Source: Halobacteriovorax sp. (GTDB lineage: Bacteria; Bdellovibrionota; Bacteriovoracia; Bacteriovoracales; Bacteriovoracaceae). Taken from it: a DNA stretch of 64,000 bases. Location: assembly GCA_002720865.1 (NCBI GenBank), contig PBIO01000017.1, positions 186,001 to 250,000 of the forward strand, given 5' to 3'. A model generated the notes under the pieces. That model saw nothing but the letters and a program-made list of their open reading frames with translations, was not told the DNA's origin and searched no databases. The translations under genes and the position numbers were made by a program. Below, one piece after another: positions 12,266 through 36,875 of the stretch (positions within the stretch are counted from its first letter, which is position 1; each line of letters begins with the position of its first letter).

Positions 12266-14629
12266 TTACTGAAAATTAACAGTTTTATCTGTATCAGACC
12301 AAGAACCCTTTAGAATTCCTTCTTCAAGAGCACCTTCGAGTAGTTTCCTACTTAGGGGTCTTGTAATTAGTCGATTAAAAACAGACTTAAGTGGTCGAGC
12401 TCCATACCTTTCATCTATGCCTCTACTAGCAAGTGCTTCGACAACTTTTTCATCTAGTTCTAACTTCAACTTTTTACTTTGTAGTCGCTCATTAAGAAAA
12501 CTTAACTCTTTTTTGACAAGATTATTAATCACATCTCCTTCAAGAGATGAATAGCTAAGAACCGCATCAAGTCGTCCTAAGACTTCTGGCTTAAAGTCCA
12601 TTTCTATATTTGTACTATTAGTAGTCATTAGGATTATAGTATTCTTAAAATCTATAGTCCTTCCTTTATTATCCGTAAGCCTCCCGTCATCAAGGATTTG
12701 TAAAAGGATATCAGAGAAATCCCCATGTGCTTTTTCAATTTCATCAAATAAGATAACGGCATAGGGCTTTCTTCTAACCGCTTCGGTTAGTACACCACCT
12801 TCATCATAACCAACATAACCAGCTGGTGCTCCAATAAGCTTAGAGACTGAGTGTTTTTCTGAGAACTCTGATAGATCAAATCGAATCAGATTAGATTCGC
12901 TATTAAAGAGAAACTCACTTAGTGCCTTGGCCGTTTCGGTTTTTCCAACTCCAGAAGGTCCTTTTAAGAGGAAACTACCAAGAGGACGACTATTATCTGA
13001 GAGTCCAGCATGGGAGGAGATCAAGGTCTCTGCGATCTCATGAAGAGGTTCATCTTGCCCAAAGACTCGGTTCTTTAAATAGTCCTCTAATTCTAAAATA
13101 TTATCTTGTTTACTCTTTAAGATTTTTTCAACAGGTATCCCTTTTTGCCTTGAGATCACTTGGGCAATATCCTTTTTACTTAAAACCCAATCGTGAGCAG
13201 TTCCCTCAAGCTGACTTTCTAGCTCTGGGATGACGCTATATTTTAGCTTACCGGCAGTTTCATAATCCTGATTTCTTTCTGCCTGACTAAGCTCGAAGTT
13301 ATAACGCTCTAATTGGTTTTTTAGTTCGCTCAGCTTTTTAACTGAAAGAACTTCTTTTTCCCAAACAGCTTTTTCTTCAAAGAACCTTTTTTCAAGTTCT
13401 TTGATCTCTTTTTGAATTTCTTTATTTTCTGAGTTTACCTGGGAGTATATTTTCTTTGTTCTAATTTCTCCTTCAAGCTCCACGAGCTTTGCAGGCATAG
13501 CTTCCGCTGAAAGTTTTAAGGCACTTGAAGCTTCGTCAACTAGATCTATAGCTTTATCCGGAAGATTCTTATCAGTAACATATTGGTCAGAAAGAATTAC
13601 TGAGCTAAAAATAGCGTCATCAGATATTTTTATTCCATGATGAATCTCTAACTTCTCTCTTATACCCATTAAAATCTCAATGGCATCTTCTTTACTAGGT
13701 TCGTTTACAGGAACTGACCTAAATCTTCGGTCTAGGGCTGAGTCTCCCAAAATAAACTTTTGATATTCTTCAGGCGTAGTAGCACCAACGCAATTTAACT
13801 CCCCTCTTGCTAGGGCAGGTTTTAATAAATTGGCCGCATCCATAGCCCCATCAGTTTTTCCAGCTCCAACCAGCTGATGAATCTCATCAATAAAGAGTAT
13901 CACTTCACTGGCCTTACTTTTAACAAACTTTAAAAGAGCTTGAAGCCTCTCTTCAAACTCTCCTCTAAATTTGGTTCCTGCCATTAAAGAACCCATATCT
14001 AATGAGTAAACTGTTTTACCTTGTAGAACGTCAGGTACTTCTCCTTTTACAATGGCGTCGGCCAGACCTTCAACAATGGCGGTTTTACCAACTCCGGCAG
14101 AGCCCACTAGAACAGGGTTATTCTTCCCTCTTCTACCAAGAATTTCCATAACCGCCCTTATCTCTTTACTACGCCCAATAACTGGGTCGAGTTTCCCTTC
14201 ACTAGCAAGCTCATTTAGGTTAGTTAAAAACGCGGGAGCTTCCGACTCACTGTCTTCATTATTTAGAGAGCTATAATCAATATTAAGTTCGGGAAAGATT
14301 TGCGGCATAAACTTTAATAAGTCCGTCTCAGTGACCTCCTGGCGTCCAGCTTGGATCGCATTTGAAGAGGCATGAGTCATCCACTCACTAAAGTTTGCAG
14401 AGGGTCTAAGCTCCGTTAGATCAACTGGTTTTGATACTACAGGTAGTTTACCAAGCAAAATCTCTATATCTTTTTTATATTTTTTTAACTCTCTAGATAC
14501 GAAGGAGGATGGGTTAGATAACAAACCATATAAAAGATGACTTGCATCTAAGCTTGAGTGCTTTCTTTTTTGTACTTCGGCTTGAGCTATATCAAGTGCT
14601 CCGGCCACAATACTATCAAATTTATTCAT
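12266..14629 (-). CDS. ClpB-like Hsp100 disaggregase (compact middle domain)
   Basis: 787 aa with two AAA+ modules. An N-terminal Clp_N-like domain (residues 1-115, [10 protein letters not shown]) is followed by D1 with Walker A GSAGVGKT (176-183) and Walker [11 protein letters not shown] coiled-coil region of about 100 residues then leads to D2 with Walker A GPSGVGKT (near 557), [17 protein letters not shown] and LFDEIEKAH. The D2 segment has no IGF/IGL loop for ClpP binding, which favours ClpB over ClpA/ClpC. The middle domain and total length are shorter than typical ClpB (about 860 aa), so it may be a paralogue rather than the main disaggregase. Role: ATP-driven threading of aggregated proteins in the cytoplasm. 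Confidence 0.88.
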
Positions 14630-29960: not shown

Positions 29961-31535
29961 ATGAACAAAGTCTTAATAACCCTATTTCTAGCGATGCTCT
30001 CGATGGAGTCCTTTGGGACTTTATTAAGCCCTCGTGAGGTTATTTTTAAAACAGATAGGCAGGTTTATTCTCTTTCTAAAATTAAAGATCCAATTGAAAA
30101 AGCAGATAAGCTTCGAAGGATTCTAAACAACTTCACCAGATTTATTGTTAAAAAAGGTATTGAATACAATAATAGACTTTCTTCTGGCTCACCTTTGAGT
30201 GGAGCTCAGCTAGAAGTTCTCTATCGTTTTATCCCTACTTATAGAAATATTTTGATTCAAGCTCAAATTGATTTAAAAGCTTTAAATGAAGCAGGCCATG
30301 AAGAAAAGCTTTTGTATCTTCATAATCATTTAAAACTTCTTCAAAGTCTAAGAACTATTCATAAGGCCTATTTTAGACCAGATGAGATGAGAACTCAGAT
30401 TCATAATGCTTTTAGAAAAGCTGAGCAGAGTTCAGTAACAAGAGATGAAATCTTAAAGCTAATTAATCAAGTAGCTTCTAAAGATAATCAAGAAAATCTA
30501 AAGAAGCTTTATAGAGATCTAATTGTTAATGGGCAATCTGTAAGCAGTGAAGGTGACCAGCTAACAGAGCTTATTAAAAGAAATAGTTTAGGAGGACGGT
30601 TAGAGTCTGAAGGATATATTAATATTTGGACCTACACCTTCTTTGATGGCCTAGCGAGATTTGGAAATAATTTGGAATACATGCTTTCTAAAGGCTTTGG
30701 AAATGTCATGGGTGAAGTAAAGTTTAGAAAAGGCTTTCTCTATAAAAACACCGAGGCTCTGGCAGAATTCAAACCAAGACTTATGCCCCTTGATATCATT
30801 GTAGAAAGAAGCCCGTTCGCTCTAACAGATATGACTATCCCTGGTCATTGGACCCATCCTGCCATTTGGCTTGGGACAGAGGAGCAGCTTAAAGATCTAG
30901 GCATCTGGTATCATCCAATTTTTAAGCCTTATCAAAAGATGATTAAAGCCGGAAAAAATGTATTAGAGGCTTTAAGACCTGGGATTCAAATTAACCCCCT
31001 TGCCTCCTACTTTAATACTGATGAAATTCTTCATATGAGAGTTCCCGGTATCCTTCAGGATAAAGAGCGAATGCTGGCCGTGTACCAAAGGGCACTAGGT
31101 CATTATGGTCAAAAATATGATTTTAATTTTGATGCCGCCTCTACTGATGTTATTGTCTGTAGCGAACTAATTTTTCAGGCCTTTGGAAATATCAACTGGC
31201 CTGCTGATAAGGTCCTAGGTCGTCACTCCATTACCCCAGATAATATTGTTGAAATCATCTTTTATGAGGACTCTCCAGTTGAATTCGTTTCAATCTTCGG
31301 CGTAAACGAGCAAAAGTCCATGTATGAACTTGATAAGGACGAGATGATGCATATGATGGGCTTTAGCCTCGACAAGTCAAAGACTCTTGAAGACGGTGAG
31401 AAGCGCTACAATAAAGAAGTAACTGAATGTAAAATTAAATCTTCCCGAGTAAGAGTGGGAAGTAGAAGGGAAAAAAGGCTTAAGATTAACAAGTGCGACC
31501 AAGTTCTTAAGCCTGCGGTTTATAAAAGTCTTTAA
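29961..31535 (+). CDS. Exported YiiX/YebB-type permuted papain-like amidase (C92-like)
   Basis: 524 aa with a signal peptide (VLITLFLAMLSMESFGT). The first 270 residues are helical and unassigned. The catalytic domain starts near 275 (LMPLDIIVERSPFALTD), with His in GHWTHPAIWLG (about 296-299) and the nucleophile Cys in DVIVCSELIFQAFG (about 399), in the circularly permuted order of NlpC/P60-related YiiX proteins. Family members cleave amide bonds in lipids or peptidoglycan-linked substrates. It ends in a basic tail and overlaps the convergent lipoprotein gene by 4 bp. Confidence 0.85.
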   Translation: MNKVLITLFLAMLSMESFGTLLSPREVIFKTDRQVYSLSKIKDPIEKADKLRRILNNFTRFIVKKGIEYNNRLSSGSPLSGAQLEVLYRFIPTYRNILIQAQIDLKALNEAGHEEKLLYLHNHLKLLQSLRTIHKAYFRPDEMRTQIHNAFRKAEQSSVTRDEILKLINQVASKDNQENLKKLYRDLIVNGQSVSSEGDQLTELIKRNSLGGRLESEGYINIWTYTFFDGLARFGNNLEYMLSKGFGNVMGEVKFRKGFLYKNTEALAEFKPRLMPLDIIVERSPFALTDMTIPGHWTHPAIWLGTEEQLKDLGIWYHPIFKPYQKMIKAGKNVLEALRPGIQINPLASYFNTDEILHMRVPGILQDKERMLAVYQRALGHYGQKYDFNFDAASTDVIVCSELIFQAFGNINWPADKVLGRHSITPDNIVEIIFYEDSPVEFVSIFGVNEQKSMYELDKDEMMHMMGFSLDKSKTLEDGEKRYNKEVTECKIKSSRVRVGSRREKRLKINKCDQVLKPAVYKSL

Positions 31536-33058: not shown

Positions 33059-33706
33059 ATGTCTCAAATTGTTGTAGCAGCGGGCCGGGCAGGTAAGAAA
33101 CTTGCTATTTGGTCTTATACTCTCCTGACTTTTTTACAAGTCAGTCCAATCGGTGGCGCCGTCGCAAAATGGGCACATTATTGGGGTGCTAACAGCAGCA
33201 AGATTATTACCTTAACTACCATTAATACAACGATGACTTTTGGAACTGAGTTTATCTCTAGGTCTATTCTTTCAAATAGCTTAACTAAAAATAAAGAGTA
33301 CAAGTTCATTGTAGGAGAAGGGGCCTGGTACAATAATATTAACCGCCAGTCCCTCATCAATATTTGGATGACATTCTTTGCATCTTTATTAGGGGCTCCG
33401 GTCTACTTCTTTAGTCGCAGGTCCACAAGATTCCTCTTCTTTATTAGTTTCGGAGTCTTCAATTCAGCCCTTAGCCAAGGACTTTTGAGTTTTCTAAGAG
33501 AAGGCTTCCTTTTAATAAGCGCTAAACGCCTACTCTTTGATTTCTTTTATAACGGAAGTTTGAAATTTTTTATGTTTGAATTTTATCGTAAGCCCATAAA
33601 GCATAAGACCAATTTCTTTAGTCTTTATTGGGTGCGCGGTAAGCAAGATGTATTAACCGGTATTTTTAAAAACCTCATACTAAACCTTTTACGATTTAAG
33701 GGATAA
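33059..33706 (+). CDS. Multi-span membrane protein preceding the exported AAA+ gene
   Basis: 215 aa with four probable membrane helices (IWSYTLLTFLQVSPIGGAV; an amphipathic stretch near 45; LINIWMTFFASLLGAPVYFF; FLFFISFGVFNSALSQGLL) and a basic C-terminus (KPIKHKTNFFSLYWVRG). Not a family I know. It is 15 bp upstream of the exported Clp-like ATPase gene and in the same direction, so it is a candidate membrane partner. Confidence 0.75.
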   Translation: MSQIVVAAGRAGKKLAIWSYTLLTFLQVSPIGGAVAKWAHYWGANSSKIITLTTINTTMTFGTEFISRSILSNSLTKNKEYKFIVGEGAWYNNINRQSLINIWMTFFASLLGAPVYFFSRRSTRFLFFISFGVFNSALSQGLLSFLREGFLLISAKRLLFDFFYNGSLKFFMFEFYRKPIKHKTNFFSLYWVRGKQDVLTGIFKNLILNLLRFKG

Positions 33707-33721
33707 CAACAGGAGAAAGAG

Positions 33722-35935
33722 ATGAAATTATTATTAATTCCTTTTCTAATGCTTGCATTTTCTTTTAACGCTTTTGCAGACGGTCAGCCAGACTTTAGAA
33801 AGCTTCAAGAGATCGCTCGTATTATTCACTCAGAGAACACGTCTTACAGGACTGACAAAGGGTGGGAGAAGATTACTGAACTGATGAATCAAGTTGAAAT
33901 TTTTGACGAGTCAGTTAAAAGAATGATGAGCACATTTTGCTCAGATGAACCAAACAAGTCGGTTCTAATTGTTGGTGAGCCAAGTGATACTTTTAAGTAT
34001 CTATTTGCTCGTCTTGCTAAAATGAGTCCAGAAGAAGGCTGTAAGCGTCTATCTCATATGGACCTTATCACGGCCAAGCTACAAGGTTATATGTACGTTG
34101 GTACAACTGAAAGAAACTGGCGCGATTTTATTGAAAAGCCTGCTTACAATAAAGACGTTGTTCTTTATGTAAATAACCTGGCACTTCTAATTGGTATCGG
34201 TACAAGTATGAACCGCGATGTGGGGATTGAGTCTACTTATATCAACGCCGTAAAAACTGGTCAGTTAAAGTCTGTGGCTTTCCTTAATAAGTACGATTAC
34301 AAAAGACTTATTCACGGAAGACATGCTTACGTTTTAAATGGTTTCCAAGAAACTATTAATGTTGATGATCTAAAGATGGCACAAGTTGATAAGCTTGTTC
34401 GTACTTACCTTGACCTTAATGCTCCTCATATTAAGATGAGTGATAAGGTGGCTAATTTTATGTACAGAAATATTCAGTACTATCAGCCAAACCTAATGGA
34501 GCCACAAAGAACAATGAATGTTGTTCTGTCTTTGATTCGTCAAAACCCGACTAAAACAACTCGTTTTAGAACTGATGTAAAGTCTCCTAATCCATATGGA
34601 GCAAACATCAAAGAAGAGTATATTATTGATCGTCCAGATGCGGTTGCTATGGGTCTGAACTTTGAATATTTTATGACTGAAGCAAATCGCGACCGTCTTA
34701 GAATTTATGACTTTCATACAAATGAGCTTCTTCAAACCATGACTGGAAAGCTTGGTGCTGTTAGATCAAATAACTTTGAAACTAATAAGCTAAGACTTGA
34801 ATTTACTTCTGATGGGTCTGTTCAAGACAAAGGTTTCAAAATTGATGCGATTGTTGAGCAAAAAACTGAGGACGTGGTTCTTACTGTTGAGCAAGTTCGT
34901 AAGGCCATTATGGAAATGGTTCAAGTTCCAGACTGGATCATCAAAAGAGATTACCAGGTAGTAAGAAACCTTCCAGCGATGCTTGAAGAAGATGTTGTTG
35001 GTATTCATATGGCCAAAAAAGCCGTTATCAAGGCCTTCAAAGTTGGTTATGTTGCTGGTCGTACTGATGAAAAACCAGCTGGAGCTCTAATGCTTGTAGG
35101 TCCTACTGGTACTGGTAAGTCTTACATCGCTAAGAAAGCTGCTGAGTTCATGGATATGAAGCTAGTTACTCTAGACATGACTCAATATGCGACTCCAGAG
35201 TCTTTTGATAGATTCCTAGAGACTGTAGCTAATAACCTTATCCTTTATCCATATGCTGTTTATCTTTTTGAAGAAATCGACAAGGCCGACACTCGTGTTC
35301 TTGATCGTCTTTACTTCATGATGGACGAAGGGATTTTCTACGATAAAAACCAAAGACCACTTTTTGCTAGAGGATCAATGGTAATGATGACGACCAACGC
35401 TGGTCACGATCTGATTATCCGCGAAAGAAACAATCCAAACCTTCAAAGACTTGTTAACGAAGAACTTCAGAAATTCTATCGTCCAAGTTTTCTAAACCGT
35501 TTTGACAGTATTCCAATTTTTCTTCCTTTTTCTAAAGAAGAATTTCATCAGTTAGCGACAATTATGACGATGAAAAAAGTTAAGAAAATGAAAGAGTATT
35601 TTGACTGGAATGCAACTGTAGACGAAGAAGTTATTCGTTTTATGGGAGAAAATGGTGGTTCAGATCTTTACGGTGCTCGTCCAATGGAAAGAATGGTTGA
35701 GAACGTAATTTCTGTTGGTATCTCTGAATACCAAATCCAAAGAGGAACTATTGAATTTGGTGACTCATTTAAGATTTCAAAAGTTCGCGGAGAAAAACTT
35801 AAGTTTAAGATTTCTGTGAATGGTCGTGGTGGTGTTAACTACGAAGTAGACATGGATAATAACTCCGGTCTTATTGATTTCTCAGCTACGTTCCCTGAAC
35901 TAGCGAAGCTTTTCCAAGAAAACAGAATGTACTAA
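33722..35935 (+). CDS. Exported Clp/Hsp100-type AAA+ ATPase with degenerate first domain
   Basis: 737 aa. The N-terminus LLLIPFLMLAFSFNAFA|DG is a textbook Sec signal peptide, with an excellent ribosome site (AGGAGAAAGAG). Residues 75-200 follow the Clp D1 plan but with lost motifs: VLIVGEPSDTFKYLF replaces Walker A and VVLYVNNLALLIGIGTS replaces Walker B. D2 is largely intact: Walker A GPTGTGKS (460-467), Walker B YLFEEIDKA (Glu for the usual Asp), sensor-1 TTNAG, an Arg finger in FLNRFDS, and sensor-2 YGARPMERM. There is no ClpP loop. Codons are of the highly expressed type (frequent CGT, GTT). An Hsp100 outside the cytoplasm is unexpected. Confidence 0.85.
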   Translation: MKLLLIPFLMLAFSFNAFADGQPDFRKLQEIARIIHSENTSYRTDKGWEKITELMNQVEIFDESVKRMMSTFCSDEPNKSVLIVGEPSDTFKYLFARLAKMSPEEGCKRLSHMDLITAKLQGYMYVGTTERNWRDFIEKPAYNKDVVLYVNNLALLIGIGTSMNRDVGIESTYINAVKTGQLKSVAFLNKYDYKRLIHGRHAYVLNGFQETINVDDLKMAQVDKLVRTYLDLNAPHIKMSDKVANFMYRNIQYYQPNLMEPQRTMNVVLSLIRQNPTKTTRFRTDVKSPNPYGANIKEEYIIDRPDAVAMGLNFEYFMTEANRDRLRIYDFHTNELLQTMTGKLGAVRSNNFETNKLRLEFTSDGSVQDKGFKIDAIVEQKTEDVVLTVEQVRKAIMEMVQVPDWIIKRDYQVVRNLPAMLEEDVVGIHMAKKAVIKAFKVGYVAGRTDEKPAGALMLVGPTGTGKSYIAKKAAEFMDMKLVTLDMTQYATPESFDRFLETVANNLILYPYAVYLFEEIDKADTRVLDRLYFMMDEGIFYDKNQRPLFARGSMVMMTTNAGHDLIIRERNNPNLQRLVNEELQKFYRPSFLNRFDSIPIFLPFSKEEFHQLATIMTMKKVKKMKEYFDWNATVDEEVIRFMGENGGSDLYGARPMERMVENVISVGISEYQIQRGTIEFGDSFKISKVRGEKLKFKISVNGRGGVNYEVDMDNNSGLIDFSATFPELAKLFQENRMY

Positions 35936-35942
35936 TTCTGAT

Positions 35943-35973
35943 GGGCGCCTATAAAGGCGCCCTTTTCTTTTTT
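35943..35973 (+). terminator. Rho-independent terminator after the AAA+ gene
   Basis: GGGCGCCT-ATAA-AGGCGCCC is a perfect 8-bp GC-rich stem followed by TTTTCTTTTTT. Confidence 0.92.
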
Positions 35974-36038: not shown

Positions 36039-36875
36039 ATGAATCTATCTGATAATAATCTACTCAAAAAAATTAAAAAACTTAGAGAACTTGAAAGAAG
36101 GACTCAATGCCAAATTATAGCTCACCTTGAAGAAGTCCATAAACGAAGGCTGTATGCTGATTTAGGATATTCTTCCCTCTTTAAATATATGGTAAAGGAA
36201 TTAGGCTATTCAGAAGGAGCCGCCGGTAGAAGACTGGGCGCCCTTAGATTATCTCAAAAAACCCCACTGGCAAAAAAGATGATTGAAACAGGAGAGCTTA
36301 GTTTAAGTGTGGCTTCCGATGCGTTTAGATTTTGTAAGGCCATGAATAAGTCCTCTACTAAAAAGGTCCTAGGAAAGCTTAAAAACAAATCTAAAGACGA
36401 AGCTAAACTTGAGTTCCTAAAGATAACGCCTAGCGACTCCGCTGAGAAGCGTGAAGTTCGACAAAGAGTAAGTACGGTTGCCACGAGAATACATCTAAAC
36501 TTAGCTAATTCCACAATTAGTAAACTAGAAAAAGTTAAAGCAATAAAAAAGTTATCTACTGAAGATGTCTTAGAGTACCTTTTAGACAAAGAACTTGAAG
36601 AATTATCCTCCGATCTTTTCAAAATTAAAAAAAGCCGTGGTTCTAAAGGCCGCAACATACCTACAAGTGTAAAAAAACAAGTTAAAGCTCGCGCTGAATT
36701 TAAATGTGAGTTTCCTGGTTGTAATGAAATTCATAATTTAGAATTTGAACATATAGTTCCATACGCTAAAGGTGGAACTCATGAATTAGAAAACATACTC
36801 CTTTACTGTAAGACTCATAATCAAAGAGCAGCAATAAAAGAATTTGGCCTCCATAAGATGAATAAATATTTTTGA
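36039..36875 (+). CDS. HNH endonuclease-domain protein
   Basis: 278 aa. The N-terminal 200 residues are helical, like the DUF222-type region in front of many HNH domains (HLEEVHKRRLYADLGYSSLFKYMVKELGYSEGAA). The HNH nuclease is C-terminal: zinc Cys pair CEFPGC, catalytic LEFEHIVPYAKGG (His-Ile), ENILLYCKTHN. Stand-alone genes of this kind occur in several copies in Bdellovibrio-type genomes. Whether it acts in defence, prey DNA degradation or as a selfish gene cannot be told. Ribosome site weak. Confidence 0.88.
   Translation: MNLSDNNLLKKIKKLRELERRTQCQIIAHLEEVHKRRLYADLGYSSLFKYMVKELGYSEGAAGRRLGALRLSQKTPLAKKMIETGELSLSVASDAFRFCKAMNKSSTKKVLGKLKNKSKDEAKLEFLKITPSDSAEKREVRQRVSTVATRIHLNLANSTISKLEKVKAIKKLSTEDVLEYLLDKELEELSSDLFKIKKSRGSKGRNIPTSVKKQVKARAEFKCEFPGCNEIHNLEFEHIVPYAKGGTHELENILLYCKTHNQRAAIKEFGLHKMNKYF

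Follow-up and report, generated by a model that had tools for sequence, protein, structure and literature searches.

Organization of the locus

The window, a stretch of 64,000 nucleotides from the genome of Halobacteriovorax sp., carries at positions 33059-35935 of the forward strand two genes, the first encoding a 215-residue polytopic membrane protein and the second a 737-residue two-ring relative of the Clp/Hsp100 ATPases. The two genes are separated by 15 bases. Both open reading frames were found where the initial annotation had placed them, and the sequence AGGAGA lies 5 bases upstream of the second ATG. The coordinates of all features are collected in Table 1.

Table 1. Features of the ATPase operon in the window
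Feature	Position	Strand	Basis
215-residue polytopic membrane protein, about 4 predicted membrane spans	33059..33706	+	ORF; hydropathy, 6-sequence alignment
Ribosome binding site AGGAGA of the ATPase gene	33711..33716	+	sequence
737-residue Clp/Hsp100-like ATPase, predicted extracytoplasmic	33722..35935	+	ORF, Pfam, orthologues
Predicted Sec signal peptide, residues 1-19 (MKLLLIPFLMLAFSFNAFA)	33722..33778	+	hydrophobic N-terminus in six relatives; dN/dS
D1 AAA module, residues 60-268, Walker A and B lost	33899..34525	+	hhalign, PDB Clp D1 matches
Cys73, first of the two sole cysteines	33938..33940	+	invariant in six relatives
Cys107, second of the two sole cysteines	34040..34042	+	invariant in six relatives
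Retained aromatic D1 pore loop GYMYVG, residues 122-127	34085..34102	+	aligned to Clp D1 loop AG(T/A)KYRG
CUB domain, residues 286-374, between D1 and D2	34577..34843	+	Pfam PF00431; PDB cubilin
D2 AAA module, residues 452-597, ATP site intact, GYVG pore loop deleted	35075..35512	+	Pfam AAA_2; alignment
D2 Walker A GPTGTGKS, residues 460-467	35099..35122	+	sequence; invariant in relatives
D2 Walker B LFEEI	35264..35278	+	sequence; invariant in relatives
D2 small domain with sensor-2 arginine (GARP)	35531..35767	+	Pfam ClpB_D2-small 2.4e-8
Intrinsic terminator stem, 8 pairs then T tract; strong	35943..35962	+	sequence

High expression had been proposed for the ATPase, and the codon usage supports this. 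The codon bias of the ATPase gene is the strongest among the 44 open reading frames of at least 200 residues in the window; the gene ranks first in its share of C-ending two-fold codons (0.44) and also in its share of the arginine codon CGT. Judging from this strong bias, the ATPase is probably abundant.

Two other observations were made in the surroundings of the operon. The other Clp ATPase of the window, a ClpA-like protein of about 787 residues (12269-14629, reverse strand), is missing about 30 residues from the segment that links sensor 1 to the Arg finger; in ClpA, the missing stretch bears the ClpP-docking loop. HNH-endonuclease proteins are encoded near the exported Clp gene both in the window (36039-36875) and at a locus of genome G102 (L058 5003-5872); they are possibly mobile or multicopy genes with no connection to it.

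Two AAA modules that have degenerated in opposite ways

The initial annotation described a ruined first AAA module (D1), without Walker A and with two asparagines in Walker B. This is correct: the Walker A position reads GEPSDTFKY, the acidic pair of Walker B is replaced by VNNL, and both motifs are missing from D1 in all six sequences of the ATPase. Profile comparison nevertheless identifies the module as a Clp D1: its hhalign alignment to the Clp D1 profile gave an E-value of 3.3e-6 over 198 columns, compared with 0.09-0.84 for three column shuffles, and a sequence-only search of the PDB returned the D1 of ClpA, ClpC and ClpB at E-values of 4e-4 to 5e-3. The pore loop of D1 has been retained; it reads GRKYVG or GNRFVG in relatives, with Y or F kept at the aromatic position in all six. 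Between the window and genome G002, purifying selection is equally strong on the two modules (dN of 0.054 for D1 and 0.060 for D2, with dS of about 1.0, hence dN/dS of about 0.06 each). Since selection on the dead D1 is as strong as that on D2, D1 is in use.

The second module (D2) had been credited with GPTGTGKS, a Walker B glutamate pair, and sensor and Arg-finger positions, all of which are confirmed by motifs (LFEEID at 515-520, TTN at 557-559, LNRFD with R593 and GARP with R653) and by Pfam matches to AAA_2 (7.4e-20) and ClpB_D2-small (2.4e-8). The whole Clp D2 spans residues 405-690 and is followed by a tail of 47 residues. No catalytic residue of D2 varies across two families, and this holds for sensor 1, the Arg finger and sensor 2 as well. 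The GYVG pore loop of D2 has been removed by a 12-residue deletion, visible as a gap in the alignment. The two rings have degenerated oppositely: D1 keeps a pore loop without an ATP site, and D2 an ATP site without a pore loop. Ordinary Clps have ATP binding and aromatic pore loops in each ring. The IGL/IGF-type loop used for docking to ClpP is absent from D2 in all six sequences, as it is from 14 of 27 control Clp loops.

An AlphaFold model of the ATPase reached a pLDDT of 71 overall and above 90 in D2, while the region between the rings that matches the CUB family (see below) was built as low-confidence helices; the underlying alignment contained Clps only. The match of this model to ClpC and ClpB in Foldseek is therefore not independent evidence. 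In a tree of D2 sequences, the six ATPases form one clade (support 1.0) separate from ordinary Clps. The class I layout of the Hsp100/Clp family, with two tandem Clp-type AAA modules, is found here (D2 by Pfam and PDB matches, D1 by profile), but intact Walker A and B motifs occur in D2 only and an aromatic pore loop in D1 only. The cytosolic location typical of bacterial members does not agree with the signal predicted in every full-length relative. Judged by its sequence, the ATPase is a divergent Hsp100 relative by descent that fails several of the defining features of the family.

The loss of the D2 loop raises the question of a relationship with Torsins, which lack aromatic pore loops and reside in the lumen of the ER (PMC5425593). 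The protein could be a bacterial Torsin counterpart, that is, a Clp-type ATPase that is exported, threads no substrates and, by ATP-dependent assembly and disassembly, remodels or switches an envelope partner, here the 215-residue protein. A weak match to the Pfam Torsin family (2.3e-6; 28.2 bits for a cut-off of 27), the predicted export signal and the presence of a membrane-protein partner are in keeping with this. A Torsin, however, consists of a single Clp-D2-like module without a pore loop, whereas the present protein has a further AAA ring in which an aromatic pore loop is conserved, and its sequence is nearer to ClpB and ClpA than to Torsin. We consider such a counterpart unlikely.

Export signal, cysteine pair and CUB domain

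The clean Sec signal claimed for the ATPase, with a predicted cleavage site between AFA and D, is borne out by its relatives. The initial annotation had named a lack of homologues bearing the signal as evidence that would speak against export; a hydrophobic N-terminal export signal was found in all six full-length relatives, although their sequences differ in this region. One of the six resembles a lipoprotein start, with an imperfect lipobox. In the comparison of the window with G002, dN is 0.02 and dS 2.2 for the signal region, values that are rough as they come from 20 codons only; the protein sequence of the signal is conserved although synonymous sites are saturated. This indicates that the signal is translated and under selection.

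The mature ATPases contain exactly two cysteines, which are invariant across relatives and 33-34 residues apart. This Cys73/Cys107 pattern is compatible with a disulfide in an oxidising compartment. The hydrophobic stretch is flanked by a positive N-terminal end and an acidic C-terminal side, a charge pattern that favours an N-in/body-out orientation even without cleavage of the signal.

A CUB domain was identified between D1 and D2. The match to PF00431 has an E-value of 1.1e-7 in the window ATPase (32.6 bits for a cut-off of 21.4) and of 6.6e-9 in that of G181 (36.5 bits). The sequence-only PDB search mentioned above also returned the CUB domains of cubilin (2.6e-5), enteropeptidase and Kremen. 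CUB domains are otherwise typical of secreted proteins. At most of the approximately two dozen loci with a match to this CUB domain that we inspected, the domain forms the C-terminus of an open reading frame with subtilase motifs. Secreted subtilases that have a CUB domain like that of the ATPase at their end are common across the phylum, with one in the window's own genome (L117 855-2540, on contig C32) and others at about 20 further loci.

The N-terminus might instead be an anchor that is not cleaved and is inserted the other way round, or result from a mis-called start, in which case the protein would be a cytoplasmic Clp variant. Cytoplasmic AAA proteases such as FtsH do bear N-terminal anchors. 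The charges around the hydrophobic stretch point the other way, the signal is kept in six relatives with differing sequences and is under selection at the codon level, the ribosome binding site belongs to the present ATG, and export would be in keeping with the CUB domain and the cysteine pair. A cytoplasmic variant is thus very improbable. That the ATPase is held at or beyond the membrane, as first proposed, is well supported by four lines of evidence, all drawn from sequence: the conserved signal, the lone cysteine pair, the CUB domain and the charge pattern. The subtilase neighbours in G102 described below add to them. The CUB domain, the lost D2 pore loop, the retained D1 loop and the Cys73/Cys107 pair are features that the initial annotation did not contain.

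Co-inheritance with the 215-residue membrane protein

We searched 369 genomes of the phylum for both proteins, leaving a fragmentary D1-CUB match in G091 uncounted. The D1-CUB part was found at or near full length in six genomes (G000, G001, G002, G021, G102 and G181); the ATPase is split over two contigs in G001 and present in two copies in G102. The 215-residue protein occurs in seven genomes, namely these six and G032. This co-occurrence is highly significant (Fisher test, 2e-12 by genome and 1e-7 by genus). The two genes lie side by side in the window genome, G001, G002, G021 and G181, the last of which belongs to another family, so that adjacency spans two genera of the window's family and a second family. 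The partnership suggested for the two proteins is thereby supported, and the pair, which the initial annotation had proposed to look for in other genomes of the phylum, does exist there, adjacent in two families but rare (6/369 and 7/369). In G032, the membrane-protein gene is followed, in the place of the ATPase gene, by a gene for a 440-residue protein with a lipoprotein-like start (L060 1105-2427), which has no detectable relation to D1, CUB or D2.

An origin from a phage or plasmid was considered and rejected, as phage, plasmid and viral collections held no relatives of the D1-CUB part or of the membrane protein. Outside the phylum, a single scan of genome contigs with peptide patterns, which are unspecific, gave ordinary Clps only among the matches listed. 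Among the open-licence papers searched, we found none that describes a comparable exported Clp from bacteria.

The membrane protein itself has no match in Pfam, PHROGs or the PDB, and no AAA-like domain was detected in it with Pfam. A relationship to GtrA or DUF2061 was rejected (hhalign probability below 1%). G000 has two DUF2061 matches, equal in both score and length, on different contigs (C16:15002-15154 and C25:85230-85382), which are possibly a repeated element. An alignment of six sequences revealed invariant residues E64, R68, R96, Q97, D161, K169, E174 and R177; according to hydropathy and the alignment, the charged ones are near or in the spans. A single-sequence structure model had a pLDDT of 40.

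The pairing of an ATPase with a membrane protein recalls the PTEX translocon of Plasmodium, in which HSP101, an HSP100 ATPase, works extracytoplasmically above a membrane pore (PMC6550532). The window ATPase could likewise be a translocation motor that threads proteins through a channel formed by the 215-residue protein, or extracts them from it, and the conservation of the operon pairing in two families is in line with this. We nevertheless give this reading a slim chance: the 215-residue protein matches no known channel, no secretion-system genes lie in the neighbourhood, and in G102 the two genes are apart, the membrane-protein gene following a different exported Clp and a trypsin-like protease.

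Secreted proteases beside the G102 genes

The two ATPase paralogues of G102 each have a secreted subtilase without a CUB domain as neighbour. One begins 15 bases downstream of the paralogue at L058 7174-9507, and the other lies 300 bases upstream of the paralogue at L057 7338-9536. The membrane-protein gene of G102 is found at a third locus (L059 468-10664, on contig C140) and is adjacent to neither. This locus encodes an AAA protein of 907 residues, a vWA protein and a Clp, all with signal peptides. Both rings of this Clp are intact and its D2 has a GYVG loop; its N-terminal region was found in no other genome of the family. A trypsin-like protease with a signal peptide comes next, followed by the relative of the 215-residue protein, an RCC1-repeat protein and a gene of the TLC family (ATP/ADP transporter-like). 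The membrane-protein gene thus stands directly behind an exported two-ring Clp and a secreted protease.

These arrangements, in G102 alone, suggest that exported Clp-type ATPases tend to go together with secreted proteases and with this membrane protein, and the relatives point more to a secreted protease as partner than to a secretion motor. Together with the CUB domain, the subtilase neighbours also suggest a link to proteases, a point against a Torsin counterpart. No secreted protease adjoins the ATPase gene in the window, G002, G021 or G181. The protease nearest to it in the window is a C92 amidase-like gene (29961-31535), a few genes upstream of the operon, whose product begins with a signal-like sequence and contains a Peptidase_C92 (YiiX-type papain-like) domain.

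ATP outside the cytoplasm and proposed function

The periplasm is generally held to be devoid of usable ATP or limited in it, and its chaperones to be ATP-independent (PMC4516975), but ATP-dependent periplasmic reactions have been reported, such as the adenylation of streptomycin (PMC4289276). An ATP/ADP transporter was rejected as a fixed partner of the ATPase: TLC-like genes occur in 52 of 129 genomes of the family, none was found in G181, and the adjacency in G102 is an isolated case. The scarcity of periplasmic ATP, like the dead D1 of all relatives, would suit an exported scaffold whose AAA modules serve for assembly or binding without steady ATP turnover, for example with one nucleotide locked in during folding. 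A scaffold would have no need of the D2 catalytic residues that are invariant in two families, and we find this quite unlikely.

The export signal, the domain layout, the gains and losses of motifs, their conservation, the co-inheritance and the protease neighbours in one genome can be read directly from the sequences. The explanation that we prefer, with confidence a little short of even, is that of an extracytoplasmic Hsp100-type unfoldase, tethered to the membrane and feeding secreted proteases. The 737-residue protein would be exported by Sec and work in the periplasm or beyond, as a ring-forming remodelling enzyme of the Hsp100/Clp type. Its D2 ring would be the ATP motor, hydrolysing ATP outside the cytoplasm, while the D1 ring would bind no ATP and grip the substrate chain with its aromatic loop, so that motor and grip would lie on different rings. 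The CUB domain between them may bind a client protein or a protease, and the 215-residue protein may tether the ring to the membrane. The output would be the unfolding of extracytoplasmic proteins by threading, most likely with hand-over of the unfolded proteins to secreted proteases. Three points weigh against this unfoldase: the ATP generally thought to be missing from the periplasm (PMC4516975), the four loci without an adjacent secreted protease, and the D2 ring without a pore loop of its own, a loss that in Torsins accompanies the loss of threading (PMC5425593).

More tentatively, there may be a complete ATP-driven system of unfolding and degradation outside the cytoplasm, in which exported Clp rings feed subtilisin-like or trypsin-like proteases and use ATP that is exported or derived from prey. 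Its full version would be seen in G102, with two exported Clp-type ATPases, a vWA protein, a trypsin-like protease, the membrane protein and a TLC gene in a row. Such a system would contradict the rule that protein quality control in the envelope is ATP-independent. With a conserved, codon-biased exported Clp that has an intact D2, the rule on periplasmic ATP becomes testable in one organism. The ATPase would also offer a natural experiment on a machine whose motor and grip belong to separate rings.

Comparison with known systems

The ATPase resembles ClpA, ClpB and ClpC in having two AAA modules in the same order, and in its D2 small domain, D2 catalytic motifs and aromatic D1 loop. It differs from them by its signal peptide, the absence of a Clp N-domain, the dead D1, the CUB domain between the rings, the deleted D2 loop and its two lone cysteines. 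With the phylum's CUB-ended secreted subtilases it shares a CUB domain with an (H/N)PY start and a GF-containing end; those proteins are proteases, whereas here the domain is part of an ATPase, and the subtilases that neighbour it in G102 have no CUB domain.

TorsinA is likewise a Clp-related AAA+ protein outside the cytosol, with a signal sequence, a loop-less D2-type module and membrane-protein cofactors (PMC5425593), but it has one AAA module and no CUB domain. Its cofactors LAP1 and LULL1 have AAA-like lumenal domains, whereas the 215-residue partner is mostly within the membrane. HSP101 of PTEX is a two-ring HSP100 that acts beside a membrane pore protein, outside the cytoplasm (PMC6550532); it is of the ClpB type and has two ATPase domains in addition to a middle domain, where the window ATPase has a dead D1 and a CUB domain, and a pore role of the 215-residue partner is putative. 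Torsin and HSP101/PTEX are the nearest known arrangements, and neither combines all of these features; the ATPase would be a bacterial parallel to these two eukaryotic extracytosolic Hsp100 relatives.
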